A stretch of 64,000 nt of DNA from assembly GCF_000179235.2 (NCBI RefSeq), contig NZ_CP039373.1, forward strand, positions 1,953,860 through 2,017,859, given 5' to 3'. Origin of the DNA: Synechococcus sp. CB0101 (GTDB lineage: Bacteria; Cyanobacteriota; Cyanobacteriia; PCC-6307; Cyanobiaceae). How positions within the stretch are numbered: position 1 is the first letter of the stretch; each line of letters begins with the position of its first letter. The translations under genes were made by a program, and so were the position numbers. Under the pieces are notes generated by a model. That model did not search any database. It was not told the origin of the DNA and was given only the letters and a program-made list of their open reading frames with translations. Below are positions 4,323 to 10,987 of the stretch, in pieces.

Positions 4323-4348
4323 AGAGGCGGCACCCAGATTCGAACTGG
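4323..4348. repeat. attL: left copy of the 26-bp tRNA-Cys direct repeat
   Basis: Identical base for base to 10915-10940; the match stops at both edges (g/c at 4322, a/g at 4349). It covers the T-arm and acceptor 3' strand of tRNA-Cys, so it is the tRNA remnant left at the distal end of the insertion. Two small hairpins follow immediately inside the island: arms 4359-4363/4369-4373, and 4375-4381/4386-4392 with one wobble. Confidence 0.9.
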
Positions 4349-4436
4349 AGAAAATTACAATATCTTCAATATTAGACGCCATATGTGGTGTCAGAAGCGC
4401 CAGAACGGCACTAAATCAAGGGTCAAGCGCCCTTGC

Positions 4437-4514
4437 TCACCTTCCACTCACCTTCCAGTAGGGATAAAGTCAGTGCTTTGACCGCCTCCCAAAACTGGGG
4501 CAAAAGGAAGGTGA
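4437..4514. promoter_or_regulatory. Putative left arm-type integrase sites (two tandem plus one inverted 9-mer)
   Basis: The 9-mer TCACCTTCC occurs at 4437-4445 and again at 4448-4456, an 11-bp period (one helical turn). Its reverse complement is at 4506-4514. The same tandem pair with the same 11-bp spacing, plus an inverted copy, occurs near the other end of the island at 10728-10796. Tyrosine integrases of the lambda class bind such arm sites with their N-terminal domain. The role is inferred from position and symmetry. Confidence 0.6.
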
Positions 4515-5896
4515 AATCAGGGTCACGACCTCTGCCAGAGAACTGGTCGGTGCTCAGCGTTTCCGACCTCGGCATCAAGGGGTCTTACCCCAACAATCTG
4601 AAGATTCGTAAAGTCGCACGCACGCAAAACCTCTCAGCGTCGTGGTTGCCCTCTTTGGAGGAAGACCATCGCCCTGACAAGGGGCGTGTAGGGAAGACAG
4701 GCAAGCGCGACCCTCTGCGTGGGTCTATGGGCACTCCTGACCCCTATGAGGCGGCAAAGAGGGCGGTGGAATGGGTTCAGGAACTCCAACGCTCAGCACG
4801 CATCCTCAAAGAGCAGCAGGAGGCGGAGCAGCAACACGCCCTGGAGATCTACTGGGAACGCTGGTATGCCCGTGAGAGCAGCAAGCGCAAGACCCAGCGG
4901 AACTTTGCCCGTTGGAGCAGGGACACCCGCCTGAAGTGGGATGGGCAGTCCTATGGGGTGAAGCACCAACCCTGGGCGCAGAAGTCAGTTGAGAAGATCA
5001 CCGCTGCTGACTTTGCGGACTACTGGGCAGTGCTTGATGCCCGCAGGACTGCGACCAACGATATGGGTGGCACCAAGGCACAGCAGAAGACCCTGATCAG
5101 GGAACTGCTCAAGGAGGCACGATCGGACTTCCCCCACCTGTCGATTCCAGATTTCCCTTCCATCTCAAGACAGGTCAAACAGGTTCAGCACCTGAAGCGA
5201 GATGAATGGGACCGCCTGATGGGCAAGATCGTCGAACTTTCAGGCGGAGTAGCAAGGGCAGACCTCACACCCCAGCAATACAAGGCGCTGGAGTGGAAAG
5301 CAGCAAATCGCTTGAACCAGAGGAACTGGGTCGATCTCTACGACACTCTCAACCTGATGTGGTTCTTCTACCTGCGTGCAGAGGACCTCCCACGACTCAG
5401 AGCAGAATGGTTCCAGGACCACGGCGAAGAGATCATCTGTCTCCTGGAGCAGACCAAAGGAAACCGACCTCAGCAACGCACAACTCACTACCGCCCTGAT
5501 GCGATTGCCAACTGGAGAAGGATGAACCTCAGGCGACCAAAAGGGTTACTTGTATTTCCACACATCAAACGCTCTGAGTCGGATGTTTCAGGGACTCTCA
5601 AGAAGAATCTAAACGACCTGTTGAGGTATGTGCTCGACCAATGCGATCCGCCAATCCTATCTCAAGCGGTGACAATGACCAACATTCGCCATACGGCATT
5701 TCGCCTCACCCTTGAAGAAGTTCCTGAACTGGGTCGTCCTCCTGGGATCTATGCCTTTGCCCAAAACGGGATGACCTCAGCAGAAATGCTTCAGCGAACC
5801 TACCTGCGTTTCATCGAGGAAGAAGCAACCGCGAAGAGAGTAAGAACACAAATCAAACCTGGGCAATGGTCAATGGTGAAAAGAGTTTCGCCATAA
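4478..5896 (+). CDS. Tyrosine recombinase / integrase of the island
   Basis: A 472-residue protein (from TTG 4478) that would insert and excise the island at tRNA-Cys. In the C-terminal catalytic domain I see Arg300 in FYLRAEDLPRL, Lys327 in LEQTKGNRP, His405 and Arg408 in NIRHTAFR, and nucleophile Tyr442 in RTYLRF. That is the R-K-HxxR-Y set of the family. A helical core-binding domain (about 95-200) precedes it. The N-terminus (KSGSRPLPENWSV) may bind arm sites. The start is uncertain: in-frame TTG 4433 would put the arm sites inside the gene, and ATG 4727 would drop the N-terminal domain. It lies at the distal (attL) end. Confidence 0.88.
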   Translation: MTASQNWGKRKVKSGSRPLPENWSVLSVSDLGIKGSYPNNLKIRKVARTQNLSASWLPSLEEDHRPDKGRVGKTGKRDPLRGSMGTPDPYEAAKRAVEWVQELQRSARILKEQQEAEQQHALEIYWERWYARESSKRKTQRNFARWSRDTRLKWDGQSYGVKHQPWAQKSVEKITAADFADYWAVLDARRTATNDMGGTKAQQKTLIRELLKEARSDFPHLSIPDFPSISRQVKQVQHLKRDEWDRLMGKIVELSGGVARADLTPQQYKALEWKAANRLNQRNWVDLYDTLNLMWFFYLRAEDLPRLRAEWFQDHGEEIICLLEQTKGNRPQQRTTHYRPDAIANWRRMNLRRPKGLLVFPHIKRSESDVSGTLKKNLNDLLRYVLDQCDPPILSQAVTMTNIRHTAFRLTLEEVPELGRPPGIYAFAQNGMTSAEMLQRTYLRFIEEEATAKRVRTQIKPGQWSMVKRVSP

Positions 5897-6000
5897 GGAT
5901 TTATCCACTCCCTTCCTGGTTGGATTTCTGGCGGGATTCTTTTGAACACGAATGGAATGCTTTGTAGGTTAGGTTCCCTGCTCACTTTTCAACTGCTATC

Positions 6001-6189
6001 TCACTGACGCCCTTGGTCAATAGCGGCGAAGGTCTCCTGAACCTCCAGTTCCGCCAGGATGCGTTTCTGAATGTCCAACTCCCGCATCAGATAGTCGTAG
6101 GTTTCAGGGAGGTAGTGATCCAGTGACACCAGTTGATCCTCCAGGAACCGAATCTTGGAGAACACCTGCTGCTTACTTGAGTTGCCCAT
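6001..6189 (-). CDS. Small coiled-coil protein, unknown
   Basis: A 62-residue protein, almost wholly helical and charged: FSKIRFLEDQLVSLDHYL, then MRELDIQKRILAELEVQETFAAI. Heptad-like hydrophobic spacing suggests a short coiled coil or helical hairpin. It is the last gene of a three-gene minus-strand run and overlaps the preceding ribbon-helix-helix-like gene by 17 bp (6173-6189) in another frame. No family is recognised. A partner of the upstream small regulators is a guess from position only. Confidence 0.55.
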   Translation of the reverse strand: MGNSSKQQVFSKIRFLEDQLVSLDHYLPETYDYLMRELDIQKRILAELEVQETFAAIDQGRQ

Positions 6190-6301
6190 ATGCTGCTTGA
6201 ATTGCTTTCTTGAGAAACTGTTCTGGTTTCAGGCGGTTCCGCTTGGCAATCTCAAGCAACATTTCATATTCAACGGAGTCCAGGTAAATCGGTTTTGCCA
6301 T
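6173..6301 (-). CDS. 42-residue ribbon-helix-helix-like protein
   Basis: The ATG at 6299-6301 opens a 42-codon frame ending at TAA 6173-6175. The product starts MAKPIYLDSVEYEMLLEIAK and continues NRLKPEQFLKKAIQAAYGQ. That is a short strand (KPIYLD), a first helix, an Arg/Lys-Pro turn and a second helix, the layout of ribbon-helix-helix DNA-binding proteins such as CopG and Arc. Such dimers are autoregulators of plasmid copy number or antitoxins. It starts two bases after the stop of the gene upstream (6304-6486) and overlaps the next gene, so the three are probably one transcript. Confidence 0.55.
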   Translation of the reverse strand: MAKPIYLDSVEYEMLLEIAKRNRLKPEQFLKKAIQAAYGQLK

Positions 6302-6303
6302 CG

Positions 6304-6486
6304 TCACATCACCGTCTGCTTGTATTTCTCATACCACCTGTAGTGGGTCAGGAGGAAGTGGAGAGTTCCTGTTCTGGATCGCCTCAAGGTTTTGGAAAGG
6401 GACTCAAACTCCTCAAAGGTCTCCTGGTGCTTGTTGCCAAAAAAGATATTGATGGATTTGCCCTCAGGGGATAGGGTTTGATTCAT
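6304..6486 (-). CDS. 60-residue protein, possibly ribbon-helix-helix
   Basis: A 60-residue product. After a polar start it reads KSINIFFGN (possible strand), then TFEEFESLSKTLRRSRTG and TLHFLLTHYRWYEKYK (two helices around a basic turn). This again fits a ribbon-helix-helix outline, less clearly than its neighbour. Its stop (6304-6306) is followed after two bases by the ATG of the 42-residue gene, so the pair is tightly linked. It opens the small minus-strand run 30 bases downstream of the HUH-like gene. Function unknown. Confidence 0.5.
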   Translation of the reverse strand: MNQTLSPEGKSINIFFGNKHQETFEEFESLSKTLRRSRTGTLHFLLTHYRWYEKYKQTVM

Positions 6487-6516
6487 ATGGTTGGAATGTG
6501 AATGCCTTCCTGCTAT

Positions 6517-7185
6517 TTAGTTCCTGGAGAACTGAAGATCTGAGTTCTCAATGTCCAGCACCAGGTCTGAATCCTGATGGTGCCTGAAGCGGTAGTAATC
6601 CTTGAGGTTGTAGTTGGCGTGATGCTCGCGGATCCAAGGTTTCAGGACGAATCCTTTGTTCTCCTTTGAGTTGCTGGTGGAGAACCGTTGAAACCCTTTG
6701 CCAACTTGATTACGGATCAACCAATCCAAACGGATCCAGGTGTCATAAGGTTCAGGGCATTCCTCAAGATGAAAGTGGGTATGGAATGCGATCTTGTAGC
6801 GTGGATTCTTGGGATCTTGAGGATTGATACACACTGGTGCCTTTTCGTGAAACCAGATGATTCGTGGTCGTTCAGGAGGATTTGGAATCTTGGTTGGTTT
6901 CGTATTCAGGAGGGCACAGAAGAACTTGTTTCGGAAATGCCGCGCTTCCTTCACCGCTGTGGCGTAGTCAGTGATAAAGGGTTGCCATTGAATGCTGCCA
7001 AACCAACAGGGTTGGAAGACCTTCTGGAATTGGTATTCAATGATTGCCTTATGGATTCTGGTGGGATCTTGATAGTTCTTGGAATCCAGTAGCAAATTCT
7101 GGATTTGGTGGTGTCCTGATTCAATCACCCGCTTCGCGTGTGATTGTTGCTCACTTCGTTCGCAACGAATTCTTGTGTAAGTCAT
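6517..7185 (-). CDS. HUH-endonuclease-like protein (putative rolling-circle Rep)
   Basis: A 222-residue protein with three motifs in the order seen in rolling-circle replication initiators. These are a strand-like WFGSIQWQPF at residues 61-70, AFHTHFHLEE at 133-142 (the His-hydrophobic-His metal site is His137-Phe-His139), and NYNLKDYY at 191-198 (a YxxK motif, candidate nucleophile Tyr192 with Lys195). Motif 2 closely resembles the HPHFHVL type of small Rep proteins. HUH enzymes nick one strand at an origin and stay linked through tyrosine. No helicase domain follows. I infer a Rep or relaxase role for the island; family membership needs a profile search. It is preceded by a hairpin-rich non-coding stretch. 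Confidence 0.5.
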   Translation of the reverse strand: MTYTRIRCERSEQQSHAKRVIESGHHQIQNLLLDSKNYQDPTRIHKAIIEYQFQKVFQPCWFGSIQWQPFITDYATAVKEARHFRNKFFCALLNTKPTKIPNPPERPRIIWFHEKAPVCINPQDPKNPRYKIAFHTHFHLEECPEPYDTWIRLDWLIRNQVGKGFQRFSTSNSKENKGFVLKPWIREHHANYNLKDYYRFRHHQDSDLVLDIENSDLQFSRN

Positions 7186-7536
7186 AGTTGATTTGAGAGT
7201 TATGGTTTCGTTGAATCTCTTGTGACCACAAGGTCTTTGAGGGTTGATAACCCTTATGAGTTCTTAGTCCTTATTCCTCTGTGGATTGGACTCTTCCCAG
7301 CAGATCCTTATTTTTCTCCTCGTTCCGCCATATGACCTCTGCCTAATGGTTTTCGGATTTGATTGTCTCCAGTAATTATATAGCGAACTTGATATTTTGG
7401 GAACCCCTTTCTGATTGAATACCGCCTAAGACCGCGAGAAACACTTCACGGTTTCATATTTTTTAGTTGATTTCAGAAGGTTGTTGCCAGTTCTGGATAT
7501 TTACCCTTGAGTTTCTATCAAGAGAAATCAGCGAAA
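7186..7536. other. AT-rich non-coding stretch with tandem hairpins (candidate origin or regulatory region)
   Basis: About 350 bases between the HUH-like gene and the serine recombinase gene with no plausible coding frame. Two perfect inverted repeats lie close together: CTTGTG-ac-CACAAG at 7219-7232 and GGGTT-gat-AACCC at 7241-7253. The first is 34 bp upstream of the HUH-like start. The rest is AT-rich with T-runs. Rolling-circle initiators commonly nick at a hairpin near their own gene, so this is the natural place to look for a nick site. Equally, the repeats may be operators. Confidence 0.4.
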
Positions 7537-8109
7537 TCACTGTGCCTCACTGATGATTCGCCGAATCGTGGAAAGCGCCAGACCCGTCTGTTCTCTGATG
7601 GAGCGGTAGGAGCACCCCTCATCCCTCAACCGCAACACAAGGCGCTCCTTTGCCTGGTTGGTCTTGGGTCTGCCGCCAAGTTTCCCACCCGCTTCCCGCC
7701 TGTGCTGAACGCTTTCAAGAGTCCTCTCACGGATCAGTGACCGCTCCACCTCCGCCAGACCTGTCAAGAGTCCGATCAGAACAGGTGCGAACTTGCCCAG
7801 TGCCTTCGTATTGACAAGGTTGTCCAGAGTCCGAATGTGAATCCCACGCTCCTGGAGGTCGTGGAGTCGGTTGATGACGCTCCGCTGATCCCTGCCGAGG
7901 CGATCCAACTTCGCCACCACCAGTTCGTCGCCATCCACCAGGGCATTGAGCGCCGCCTGGAGTTGGGGGCGATCCTTCTCCGCCGTTCTGGTGCTGATGG
8001 TCTCCTGGAAGACCACGGCGCACCCTGCCGCTTTCAGGGCAGCGACCTGGGCATCGGTGGTCTGGTGGGCGGTTGAGCAGCGGGCGTAACCAACGCTTCT
8101 GGCGGTCAC
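7537..8109 (-). CDS. Small serine recombinase (resolvase/invertase family)
   Basis: A 190-residue protein of usual resolvase/invertase length. The N-terminal catalytic domain shows VGYARCSTAHQ with nucleophile Ser12, and KLDRLGRD with Arg70 and Arg73. The long E-helix region (LAEVERSLIRERT) leads to GGKLGGRPKT and a C-terminal helix-turn-helix (CSYRSIREQTGLALSTIRRI). Such enzymes resolve cointegrates or invert DNA between short sites. In the island it could maintain monomers or switch a segment. The adjacent upstream region holds a palindrome and a 15-bp repeat pair that might be its site. The Cys in ARCST replaces the more common Val. Confidence 0.88.
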   Translation of the reverse strand: MTARSVGYARCSTAHQTTDAQVAALKAAGCAVVFQETISTRTAEKDRPQLQAALNALVDGDELVVAKLDRLGRDQRSVINRLHDLQERGIHIRTLDNLVNTKALGKFAPVLIGLLTGLAEVERSLIRERTLESVQHRREAGGKLGGRPKTNQAKERLVLRLRDEGCSYRSIREQTGLALSTIRRIISEAQ

Positions 8110-8125
8110 TGTTCCAAGAAAGGTC

Positions 8126-8229
8126 GTTTCGGAAACTCTACCATCCGAACACTGTTTCTGGAACGCTCAGAACCCAGTGGATTGGGTTTTGGGCGATGCT
8201 CTGGTTTCCGTTCGGTTTTTGGAACGCTC
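8126..8229. repeat. Palindrome and 15-bp direct repeats upstream of the serine recombinase (candidate res site)
   Basis: GTTTC-G-GAAAC at 8126-8136 is a perfect palindrome 17 bp upstream of the recombinase start. A 15-base element ending TGGAACGCTC occurs at 8154-8168 and 8215-8229 (14 of 15 identical), 61 bp apart. Resolvase genes often lie beside their recombination site, which consists of several dimer-binding repeats. No crossover dinucleotide can be assigned by eye. Confidence 0.35.
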
Positions 8230-8320
8230 CCACGATGGCGCCTGCCCGCAAATGCGCCAACTTCAAGGAGGGCAATAGTTATTCGTGGATCACAATGCTC
8301 CATAAAACGATACGAGCGAA

Positions 8321-10369
8321 TTACCGCATTAAAGATGCCAATTCGCTCTTCAGCACTTTGGAAGCATACCGAACTGCTGCGTTTTCAGTAATATGCCCAT
8401 CGTCGCGAAAAATCTGAACTCCATCAAGATAAATCGAGCAAATGCCCCTCTTATCGCAGAATTCTTGCCTTAAATTTATATACTTTGTGTTGGTCTGACT
8501 GGCGGAAGTTATCATTCGCCCAATCGCATCAAGTGATGACTGATCTGTTGCCACTTCTCTGATTGTCTTTACGCATGAAGATAGGGGGGAGGGTCTATAC
8601 CATGTTTTCTGACAAAGTAACGGATCTCCAAGCGCAGGAACATCATCTAAAAGAATAAAATATGCTCCTTGCGACACAATGCGCTCAGCAAGAGATGCAA
8701 CAGCATTTCCCAACCCAGGAGAATTCTTCTTCCCTGCTCCATCCCTCCAGTCCATGCTCAATACGACCATATCTTTAGGGCGTATATCATTGGAAACGAA
8801 GGTATCAATATTGGCAATGTAGTCATTGCAATTAAAGTTCTTGATTCGTGATATATGTGCTGCGGTAGATCTAGGTAGATATGCACACCCCCATCCCACT
8901 GTATAAGTTCTAACCGCGGCGTCTGGAAATGCGTTCGTTAGACCTGGGGCATATGCACTTGCGTGAGAATCTCCTATAACATAAATTCTGCTCTTGAACC
9001 CATCGCTTTTGTCAATTCCAAGGCACTTGCTCAAATCTGATTCTCTTATCAAGTCGCTTTTATGGCACCCCTTGGTCTTCTTGATACCTGCTGCTTGCCC
9101 CCATTTCTGCCAACTATCAGAATCTTTTAAAATCAATGATCTATAAACTTTTCCATTGTCAAGCCGCTTTTCAATTAGTCGCACTTGGGGGTTCGCAAAT
9201 TGGAAAACATTTGCCGACTTGTGGTTTAGGAGGAAAATAATAGACGCATTCACGCTCGTTGTCAAAAGTGCTGCTCCTATTGCCGTTTGGATGCTTTGGA
9301 TATGCCTTGTTTTGCGCAATGGACTCTCAATATACTTGTGAGATAGATATGCTATAAAAAACATGGCGGGAACTTGCAAAAAGACAGACCACCAATGAAT
9401 GCCCAAAGTCCAACGACTTATTGAAAGCACTGACCAGTGCCATAGATATAGCGAATAAGAGATCAGACCCACATAAACGACCTTTTCAAGGGTGAAAAAG
9501 TGATATGTCATAGTTCCTTTTTTGAGGCAGGCAATCAGCACTGCTGAAAGCAGCACAATTGATATGGTTGCAGGAACTGCTGCGCCAATGGGCAGGAACA
9601 TCACCCCCACCATTGCCAGCATTACTAGAAGAGGTGGAACCTGCTCTAATGCTTGCTCAACCCTTGCCCTCCTCTGAAAACCAATAAAAATTAGACATCC
9701 TGCTGCCATCTCCCAAAACCGAGGTGGCATCAGGAAGTAGGCAGCAGGTTGATTGATCTGATACAGGTAAATGAAACTGATTAGTGAAGCAATCGTCAGC
9801 GATCCAACTAATAGAAATAGATTTCGTGCTCCTTTGTCCTTCTGCCGCCCGAACCCTGAGAACCAGATCAGGAATGGGAACAGTAGGTAAAACTGCTCTT
9901 CCACCCCAAGTGACCAAGTGTTCGTGAAGGGGTTCAGTTCCGTTGATTGGGCGAAGTAGTCGGTTGATTGATTGAGTAGATAGAGATTTGACAAACCAAC
10001 GAGCGAGGTGCCACCTGTTATCAGGGCAAGCGTGGGATCAGGATTGAAAAGGCATATCAAAACACTGGTGATCAGGACGAAGACCACCAGTGCAGGCACC
10101 AGGCGCTTGATCCGTCGCACATAAAACCCAGTAAGGAAATCCAGGAAGTTCTTGGACTCCCTGCCCGCCAGCGACGAAGTGATCACATATCCCGAAATCA
10201 CGAAGAAAATATCAACGCCCAAATATCCGCTGGGCAGCAGGTTCTTGTTGAAGTGATTGATGATGACAGCAACCACCGCAAATGCCCTCAGACCATCAAT
10301 CTCGGGGCGGTATTTGCTCTTGTTTGGTGAAGTTTTATTGGTAATGGATGGTGCTGATACTGTCGCCAT
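8321..10369 (-). CDS. OafA/YrhL-type membrane acyltransferase with C-terminal SGNH domain
   Basis: A 682-residue membrane enzyme. The acyltransferase-3 part opens with YRPEIDGLRAFAVVAVI, then GYLGVDIFFVISGYVI, FYVRRIKRLVPAL and TWSLGVEEQFYLLFP, all hallmark motifs. Roughly ten membrane segments run to residue ~380. An extracytoplasmic SGNH hydrolase-like domain follows, with IGDSHAS near residue 465 and FRDDGHITENAA near 655 (catalytic Ser and Asp/His). These proteins transfer acetyl groups from the cytoplasm to outer-membrane glycans such as O-antigen. It is the island's cargo gene and is more AT-rich than host genes. Altered O-antigen could change phage or grazer recognition (inference). 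Confidence 0.9.
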   Translation of the reverse strand: MATVSAPSITNKTSPNKSKYRPEIDGLRAFAVVAVIINHFNKNLLPSGYLGVDIFFVISGYVITSSLAGRESKNFLDFLTGFYVRRIKRLVPALVVFVLITSVLICLFNPDPTLALITGGTSLVGLSNLYLLNQSTDYFAQSTELNPFTNTWSLGVEEQFYLLFPFLIWFSGFGRQKDKGARNLFLLVGSLTIASLISFIYLYQINQPAAYFLMPPRFWEMAAGCLIFIGFQRRARVEQALEQVPPLLVMLAMVGVMFLPIGAAVPATISIVLLSAVLIACLKKGTMTYHFFTLEKVVYVGLISYSLYLWHWSVLSISRWTLGIHWWSVFLQVPAMFFIAYLSHKYIESPLRKTRHIQSIQTAIGAALLTTSVNASIIFLLNHKSANVFQFANPQVRLIEKRLDNGKVYRSLILKDSDSWQKWGQAAGIKKTKGCHKSDLIRESDLSKCLGIDKSDGFKSRIYVIGDSHASAYAPGLTNAFPDAAVRTYTVGWGCAYLPRSTAAHISRIKNFNCNDYIANIDTFVSNDIRPKDMVVLSMDWRDGAGKKNSPGLGNAVASLAERIVSQGAYFILLDDVPALGDPLLCQKTWYRPSPLSSCVKTIREVATDQSSLDAIGRMITSASQTNTKYINLRQEFCDKRGICSIYLDGVQIFRDDGHITENAAVRYASKVLKSELASLMR

Positions 10370-10914
10370 CTGCTTTTAGGGGGGGCATAACTATATCGCA
10401 TATCGCCACCCTTCGCCGCGGCATCTCCTGTTCGGTTCTGTCCCTCATCCGCCACGGGGGGGGGATGGAGGGTGCTGCTCTATCGCCGACTCGGTGCTCT
10501 CAGCGTTCCTTCAGGGGGAAATGGTGCCCTGGTGTCCCGTGATCCAGGTGATTGCCCTGCGGGTGCTGAGGCGCCGCAACAAGGGTGGGAGGGGCGTCCA
10601 GTACCAGGCGTGGTCTGGGTGGCATCCGCAGCGTCCAGGAGGCGCTGTGGGCGTCGTGGAGATGCTGCGTGGTGCCCTTGAGCACCTCGGTGTGGATTGG
10701 GCGCAATGAGTTGAGCGACAGGCGCTGGGAAGGTGAATCCTGGGAACCTTTTCCAAGACCAGAGGCGCACCCCTTGTCACCTTCCGCTCACCTTCCGCCT
10801 GAGAGGGGACTGGATCGCCAGGTCGCAACAACCGAGGACTCCAGATATGGTGCCTCGACGCCTACTCCTGTTCGTCAGGGCACCAGATAAGGCGCCTCTG
10901 TGGTTTCAAAATTC
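10370..10914. other. Right-end non-coding region of the island
   Basis: About 545 bases between the acyltransferase start and the right attachment repeat. It contains a G7 run (10379-10385), a G9 run (10456-10464), the right arm-like sites (10728-10796), and an 8-bp stem (CGCCTCTG/CAGAGGCG) that begins near 10893 and runs into the tRNA-Cys 3' end. Several short open frames exist, but none reads like a protein. The middle (10480-10720) is more GC-rich than the rest of the island. Confidence 0.4.
10728..10796. promoter_or_regulatory. Putative right arm-type integrase sites
   Basis: TCACCTTCC stands at 10777-10785 and 10788-10796 (11-bp period); its reverse complement is at 10728-10736. This mirrors the left cluster at 4437-4514, including the extended match TCACCTTCCRCTCACCTTCC. 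The cluster lies about 120 bp from the right repeat; the left one lies about 90 bp from its repeat. Symmetry at both ends supports recombinase binding. Confidence 0.6.
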
Positions 10915-10940
10915 AGAGGCGGCACCCAGATTCGAACTGG
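10915..10940. repeat. attR: right copy of the 26-bp direct repeat, inside tRNA-Cys
   Basis: Identical to 4323-4348. It supplies the 3' portion of the functional tRNA-Cys gene, so the insertion keeps the tRNA intact. This is the usual arrangement for elements that integrate at tRNA 3' ends. Confidence 0.9.
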
Positions 10941-10987
10941 GGGTAAAGGATTTGCAATCCTCTGCCTTACCACTTGGCCATGCCGCC
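10917..10987 (-). tRNA. tRNA-Cys (GCA)
   Basis: A 71-base cloverleaf on the minus strand. The acceptor stem GGCGGCA pairs with TGCCGCC, discriminator T. The anticodon stem AGGAT/ATCCT encloses loop TTGCAAA-type bases with GCA (complement of 10953-10955). The T-arm contains GTTCGAATC. CCA is not encoded. Its 3' third is the integration target of the island on its 3' side. Confidence 0.95.

Follow-up and report, generated by a model that had tools for sequence, protein, structure and literature searches.

A small integrative element in the tRNA-Cys gene of Synechococcus sp. CB0101, probably moved by a lambda-type integrase with putative arm-type sites at the element's ends

We analysed a 64,000-nucleotide stretch of the Synechococcus sp. 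CB0101 genome (hereafter the window; all positions are counted from its first base) and found a 6,592-bp insert in a tRNA-Cys gene, with the 3' end of the tRNA repeated perfectly over 26 bp at its two boundaries. We regard this insert as very probably a small integrative element with a lambda-type tyrosine integrase and putative arm-type sites at its ends. The matched sites at the two ends, taken together with a predicted integrase fold that resembles lambda integrase, point towards a lambda-type mechanism with arm-type sites.

Results

The insert and its boundaries

The CB0101 genome that contains the window is complete (2.79 Mb) and belongs to the same genus as Vulcanococcus limneticus (G006). 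ARAGORN called an intact tRNA-Cys(gca) on the minus strand at 10916-10987, and both this call and the repeat match identified the tRNA-Cys 3' end as the proximal attachment repeat (10915..10940, plus strand), which is identical at 26/26 bases to the distal attachment repeat at 4323..4348 (plus strand). A reading of this DNA from sequence alone had described a perfect 26-bp direct repeat on both sides, and these are the two copies. That reading had also raised the concern that the repeat might be shared by unrelated loci; a search of the whole 2.79-Mb genome found just this one pair, even with 3 mismatches allowed. The GC content per kb was 44-59% in the insert versus 61-72% in the rest of the window, and the ORFs of the insert encode a tyrosine integrase, two small proteins, a HUH-motif protein, a small serine recombinase and an AT3-SGNH acyltransferase, so that the tyrosine integrase near the distal repeat and the AT-richer interior noted earlier are both borne out. 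When we scanned six insert ORFs, no conjugation or phage structural family scored above the cut-off, as the sequence-only reading had it; the 60-aa ORF gave one weak match to Dit_N (distal tail domain) at 15.7 bits, below the cut-off of 25. We infer that the distal repeat at 4323-4348 is the host-side copy of the tRNA-Cys 3' end. The excised circle would retain a single repeat copy, and its predicted junction consequently joins 10940 to 4349 (equivalently 10914 to 4323), which corrects the junction of 10914 to 4349 that had been proposed.

Empty sites in relatives

We searched 60 genomes for the two genes that flank the site, an aldo/keto reductase gene and a lipid-A-disaccharide-synthase-related gene. 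The genus was represented by 25 genomes (the window's own included), and 20 of their sites could be judged: 13 were empty, 3 held the element family (G000, G006 and G023) and 4 were longer and had no recognised second repeat copy (G001, G007, G014 and G016). The sites of G004, G009, G012, G017 and G019 were excluded from judging owing to contig breaks or missing flank genes. At the 13 empty sites some 540-605 bases separate the flank genes, with one repeat copy between them (8 identical, 5 with one mismatch), and the window flanks, when joined, align across the junction with the empty sites of the five genomes aligned (G015, G024, G008, G022 and G005). The earlier proposal of an integrative element, with the repeat as its attachment site and an empty site in relatives, is thus supported by 13 same-genus genomes, and empty tRNA-Cys sites for this kind of element are new here.

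The same tRNA-Cys interval is also enlarged in five other genomes (L053, L055, L056, L057 and L058). No second repeat copy was found, at up to 5 mismatches, in the enlargements of G014, G001, G007, G016 and G029; those of G001 and G007 have in common a similar 323-aa ORF without an assigned function.

The element family

Relatives of the integrase were present in 5 of the 60 relatives (own genome counted). When a 10-row alignment was used for the search, 43 of 400 host-family genomes gave a match, fragments included; about 20 of these 43 matches are near full-length and the remainder are pieces. A class-wide sample gave 10/388, none of them outside the family to which the host belongs. The hosts that could be named comprise V. 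limneticus, Prochlorococcus MIT 0701, Synechococcus UW105 and six single-cell or uncultured genomes.

Every one of the 15 elements with both ends on one contig has an exact tRNA-end repeat (21-33 bp), with tRNA-Cys as the target in 10 and tRNA-Phe in 5. The sixteenth complete element, that of V. limneticus, is split over two contigs, and its repeat copies differ at one base. The 16 complete elements, and the end-site counts based on them, leave aside the incomplete loci of G161, G267, G306, G311 (two loci) and G314 and also the loci L069-L072. Two of the latter (L069 and L071) have a period-11 repeat at both ends, L070 has the tRNA repeat alone, and in L072, which has a broken integrase and a tRNA-Cys, no repeat of 15 bp or more was found. 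Three truncated integrases were left out of further analysis, those of G150 and G185, near contig ends, and that of G187.

A homologue of the serine recombinase (28-95% identity) lies inside 14 of the 16 complete elements, being absent from G231 and G214, and the HUH protein is found in 5 of the 16. Among the element copies of the latter, only those of the window and V. limneticus are clearly full-length; that of G023 ends early, that of G120 is split over two frames and that of G209 is a 99-aa piece. The gene combination had been called unusual, which did not hold for the family: the two recombinases together are usual, and the HUH protein is an optional module. Between the window element and that of V. 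limneticus, the integrase, the serine recombinase and the two small proteins share 88-95% identity, the HUH protein 78% and the acyltransferase 49%; the low acyltransferase identity relative to the other genes would fit either an exchange of the cargo or its rapid divergence.

In six genomes of one genus (G319, G309, G299, G304, G349 and G329; loci L110-L113, L116 and L117) we observed decayed tRNA-Phe loci. These have the N-terminal half of the integrase alone, in frames of 227-252 aa whose matches end near residue 225-234; four of the loci have a degraded distal repeat, in the other two none was recognised, and pairwise dN/dS is 0.10-0.30. They may represent an immobilised element in which the DNA-binding half of the integrase has been retained.

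The tyrosine integrase

The integrase (461 aa; 4511..5896, plus strand, with a GTG start inferred from homologues) had no match in Pfam, NCBIfam or PHROGs. Residues R289, K316, R393 and Y431 are invariant in all 18 full-length members; where His usually precedes Arg II, 16/18 have Thr, and 13/18 have His at the later His position. An AlphaFold2 model of moderate confidence (mean pLDDT 76.4, pTM 0.48) matched XerA and lambda Int by Foldseek at E-values below 0.001, with weaker matches to Cre and other tyrosine recombinases; the lambda Int match had an E-value of 4.4e-4, and TM-scores by query length reached only 0.37. In a second-look alignment, lambda Int (1z1g) covered model residues 7-445 (Z 13.9, rmsd 8.5) and a S. 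aureus integrase covered residues 223-454 (Z 14.0, rmsd 4.9). A search of PDB sequences with the integrase profile gave chance-level matches and found no integrase. From the model, the integrase is predicted to combine catalytic and core-binding parts with an N-terminal domain, in the manner of lambda Int. Pattern-based scans of IMG/VR found no relatives of the integrase, nor did tblastn searches of 50,697 phage records and of plasmid records.

Putative arm-type sites at the element's ends

A repeat search of the ends found a tandem pair of TCACCTTCC with period 11 on the plus strand at the left (4437..4456) and another at the right (10777..10796). An inverted copy accompanies each pair: the left one (4506..4514, minus strand) overlaps the GTG start of the integrase, and the right one, GGAAGGTGA, lies at 10728..10736 on the minus strand. 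All six putative arm copies of the window element are exact. Across the genome, the TCACCTTCC pair at up to 1 mismatch occurs just at 4437-4456 and 10777-10796, and the reversed pattern gave 1 match.

This arrangement is general in the family. A period-11 tandem lies inside both ends of all 16 complete elements, and in 32/32 ends it is the best repeat among periods 10-12, with 10 of 10 matching positions in 24 ends, 9 in 7 and 8 in one (the left end of G280). As a control, 118,460 interior positions held 6 period-11 places with 9 or more matches; among 2,000 similarly sized interior windows, 8 had a period-11 repeat as their best with 9 or more matches, or 82 if periods 10-12 are counted. The inverted third copy is present, at up to 1 mismatch, in 29/32 ends (it is missing from the right ends of G120 and G034 and the left end of G244), against an expectation in interiors of 0.07 per 250 bp.

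The tandem unit varies across elements (TCACCTTCC, TTACCTACC, TCCGCTACA, TCCCTATCA and others), and the two ends of an element tend to agree. With the units put in register by hand, the mean left-right distance over 16 elements (G209 in) was 0.72 within elements vs 2.68 between them, and 0/100,000 permutations were as close. When the first element per left unit was retained, leaving 9 elements with different left units, the distances were 0.39 within vs 3.18 between (1/100,000 permutations); this choice excluded G209, the one clear exception. The G209 element (L073 / L066, Synechococcus UW105) has unlike units at its ends, TTACCTACC at the left and TCCCCTACA at the right, and its right end resembles by eye the right end of G028, which suggests that it may be a chimera of two elements. 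In the tRNA-Phe elements of G174, G268, G214 and G244 the left unit, TCCCATACC, differs from the right units (TCCCCTACC and a variant).

We also compared the two end copies of the tRNA repeat where they differ: the differences lie on the outer side in G023 and G006 and on the inner side in G028, G034, G074, G280 and G330, and this places the crossover in the tRNA 3' segment common to both copies, no further than the T-arm. The integrase N-terminal domain probably binds the putative arm-type sites. Binding to the left inverted copy, which overlaps the start of the integrase gene, could in addition repress the integrase. The end-site anatomy is new here; our literature search for arm-type sites in picocyanobacterial integrases returned no title on these elements.

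HUH module, serine recombinase and cargo

The remaining insert genes all lie on the minus strand. The 62-aa ORF (6001..6189) is conserved in V. limneticus and has relatives in the HUH-bearing islands of G019 and G169, and next to it is the 60-aa small protein (6304..6486). The 222-aa HUH-motif protein (6517..7185) contains FGSIQW, HTHFH and YNLK, motifs that are conserved in a 14-row alignment that includes two distant rows (G028 and G000b): His135 and His137 are present in 14/14 rows, Tyr192 in 13/13 with a residue there and Lys195 in 13/14. A model built from a 3-row alignment had a pLDDT of 43.5, and among its 535 structure matches at E-values up to 10 none reached 0.001; a profile search of PDB sequences gave chance-level matches alone, and no relatives of the protein were found in IMG/VR. 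Going by its motifs, a role as a nicking or replication enzyme is plausible.

The HUH protein was found in 18 of 400 host-family genomes, 12 of which are outside the 43 with integrase matches. The motif picked out from sequence alone is real, though the protein also occurs outside this element family. We read ten further HUH loci (L100-L109): the 60-aa protein is its partner in 7/10, a close serine recombinase (66-68%) is present in 4, and a tRNA-Ser lies within the stretch in three (G169, G076 and G198). At the eight loci in which an integrase-like ORF was examined (L100 and L105 left out), Phage_integrase scored above the cut-off in 7/8 and below it in the eighth, and the three loci beside tRNA-Ser also have an Arm-DNA-bind_3 domain. 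As these HUH loci have ordinary phage-type integrases, the HUH module is common to islands with different integrases. The genome of the window has a distant HUH copy as well (27-32% identity), located elsewhere, near 1.383 Mb, next to a further integrase-like ORF.

The small serine recombinase (190 aa; 7537..8109) is of the resolvase/invertase type (PF00239, E=1.3e-32; PHROG DNA invertase, E=1e-48). A tentative candidate for its site lies at 8105..8225 on the minus strand, with GTTCCA-type repeats at 8208-8225 and 8145-8164 and an inverted piece at 8105-8120; the pattern derived from it was found upstream in 5 of 13 elements tried. The acyltransferase 3 + SGNH protein (O-acetyltransferase-like, 682 aa; 8321..10369), in which we found PF01757 and PF19040, is the cargo, as had been read from the sequence.

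Discussion

On the lambda-type reading, the integrase would recombine an attP core, consisting of the tRNA-Cys T-arm and 3' end on the circle, with the chromosomal tRNA-Cys, so that the element would supply its own tRNA 3' end and the host's copy would be left at the far side. The integrase N-terminal domain would probably hold the arm-type sites, that is, the period-11 tandem pair and the one inverted copy at each end. The serine recombinase may resolve multimers or cointegrates, the HUH protein may nick or replicate the excised form, and the acyltransferase may alter surface glycans.

Three other explanations deserve weight. A phage satellite dependent on a helper phage for packaging would likewise be small, with its own integrase, a possible replication protein and no conjugation or capsid genes in the scanned ORFs; we consider it unlikely, as no packaging family was recognised among the element's ORFs and the IMG/VR scans and tblastn of phage records had returned no relative of the integrase. 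Still less probable is a decayed, immobile island retained for its acyltransferase. Decay has a precedent in the six tRNA-Phe loci, with their truncated integrase and degraded or unrecognised distal repeat, but in the window the integrase reading frame is uninterrupted, neither repeat has a mismatch and none of the six arm copies deviates from the unit; among the 20 same-genus sites judged, 13 are empty.

We give equally little credence to a tycheposon proper, moved by a tycheposon-type integrase. The tRNA end, the tyrosine recombinase, the small size and the picocyanobacterial host all fit tycheposons as described at second hand (PMC10872708), but a preprint by Flamholz, Biller and Kelly (PMC10187409) sets integrases with the features seen here apart from tycheposon integrases, a separation we apply by description. 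The kinship with tRNA-linked elements of picocyanobacteria seen in the sequence-only reading is supported, though not with tycheposons specifically, the integrase fitting the family that the preprint separates.

Taking the lambda-type integrative element together with the distribution of its parts, we can sketch a wider and rather doubtful picture. The element would replicate as well as integrate and would behave like a plasmid once excised; a lambda-type integrase, its arm sites co-evolving and specific to each element, would move it in and out of tRNA-Cys or tRNA-Phe, and an exchangeable module (HUH nickase, small partner and serine resolvase with its own site) would copy and resolve the circle. 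The same module would serve other islands, some beside tRNA-Ser with ordinary phage-type integrases, and one other genus of the host family would retain the DNA-binding half of the integrase alone, perhaps guarding the tRNA-Phe site.

The paired end sites offer an exact and cheap test of the integrase mechanism and predict attP for other members, and the naturally varied units are a ready-made set for studying joint change of an integrase and its DNA sites. Such elements move cargo among very abundant primary producers, and an acyltransferase cargo acting on surface glycans could matter for phage resistance.

The kind of element is known, in that the window element fits, as matched by description, the picocyanobacterial integrase element of PMC10187409. 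Marine Prochlorococcus and Synechococcus are the hosts of the tyrosine integrase family described in that preprint (cluster158946). The integrases lie upstream of tRNA-Phe or tRNA-Cys and are accompanied by variable islands and a small serine recombinase; the authors distinguish the family from tycheposon integrases and state that its mechanism is not yet known. The suggestion of a possible new small family accordingly falls away: the tRNA-Cys/tRNA-Phe target, the variable cargo and the nearby serine recombinase are already in print there. Shared with cluster158946 are a divergent tyrosine integrase, these targets, variable cargo, a nearby small serine recombinase and, with equivalence judged by motif, the R/K/R/Y residues (Arg212, Lys235, Arg311 and Tyr342 in lambda numbering). 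What differs is a host in the V. limneticus genus group, and the attachment repeats, empty sites, putative arm-type sites and HUH module described here; the terms attachment site, direct repeat, freshwater, HUH and Vulcanococcus are absent from the preprint's main text, and a member in the Vulcanococcus group is new here. Tycheposons are similarly tRNA-linked and cargo-bearing with a tyrosine recombinase, but their integrase lineage is distinct according to PMC10187409.

With phage lambda the element shares a predicted integrase fold over most of the length and a separate N-terminal domain, and, as far as our putative sites go, arm-type sites on both sides of the core as in attP. Lambda Int has a separate N-terminal domain, and arm-type sites flank the core of attP on both sides. 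The element differs from lambda in the Thr that replaces His before Arg II in most full-length integrases and in having a tandem pair plus an inverted copy at each end.
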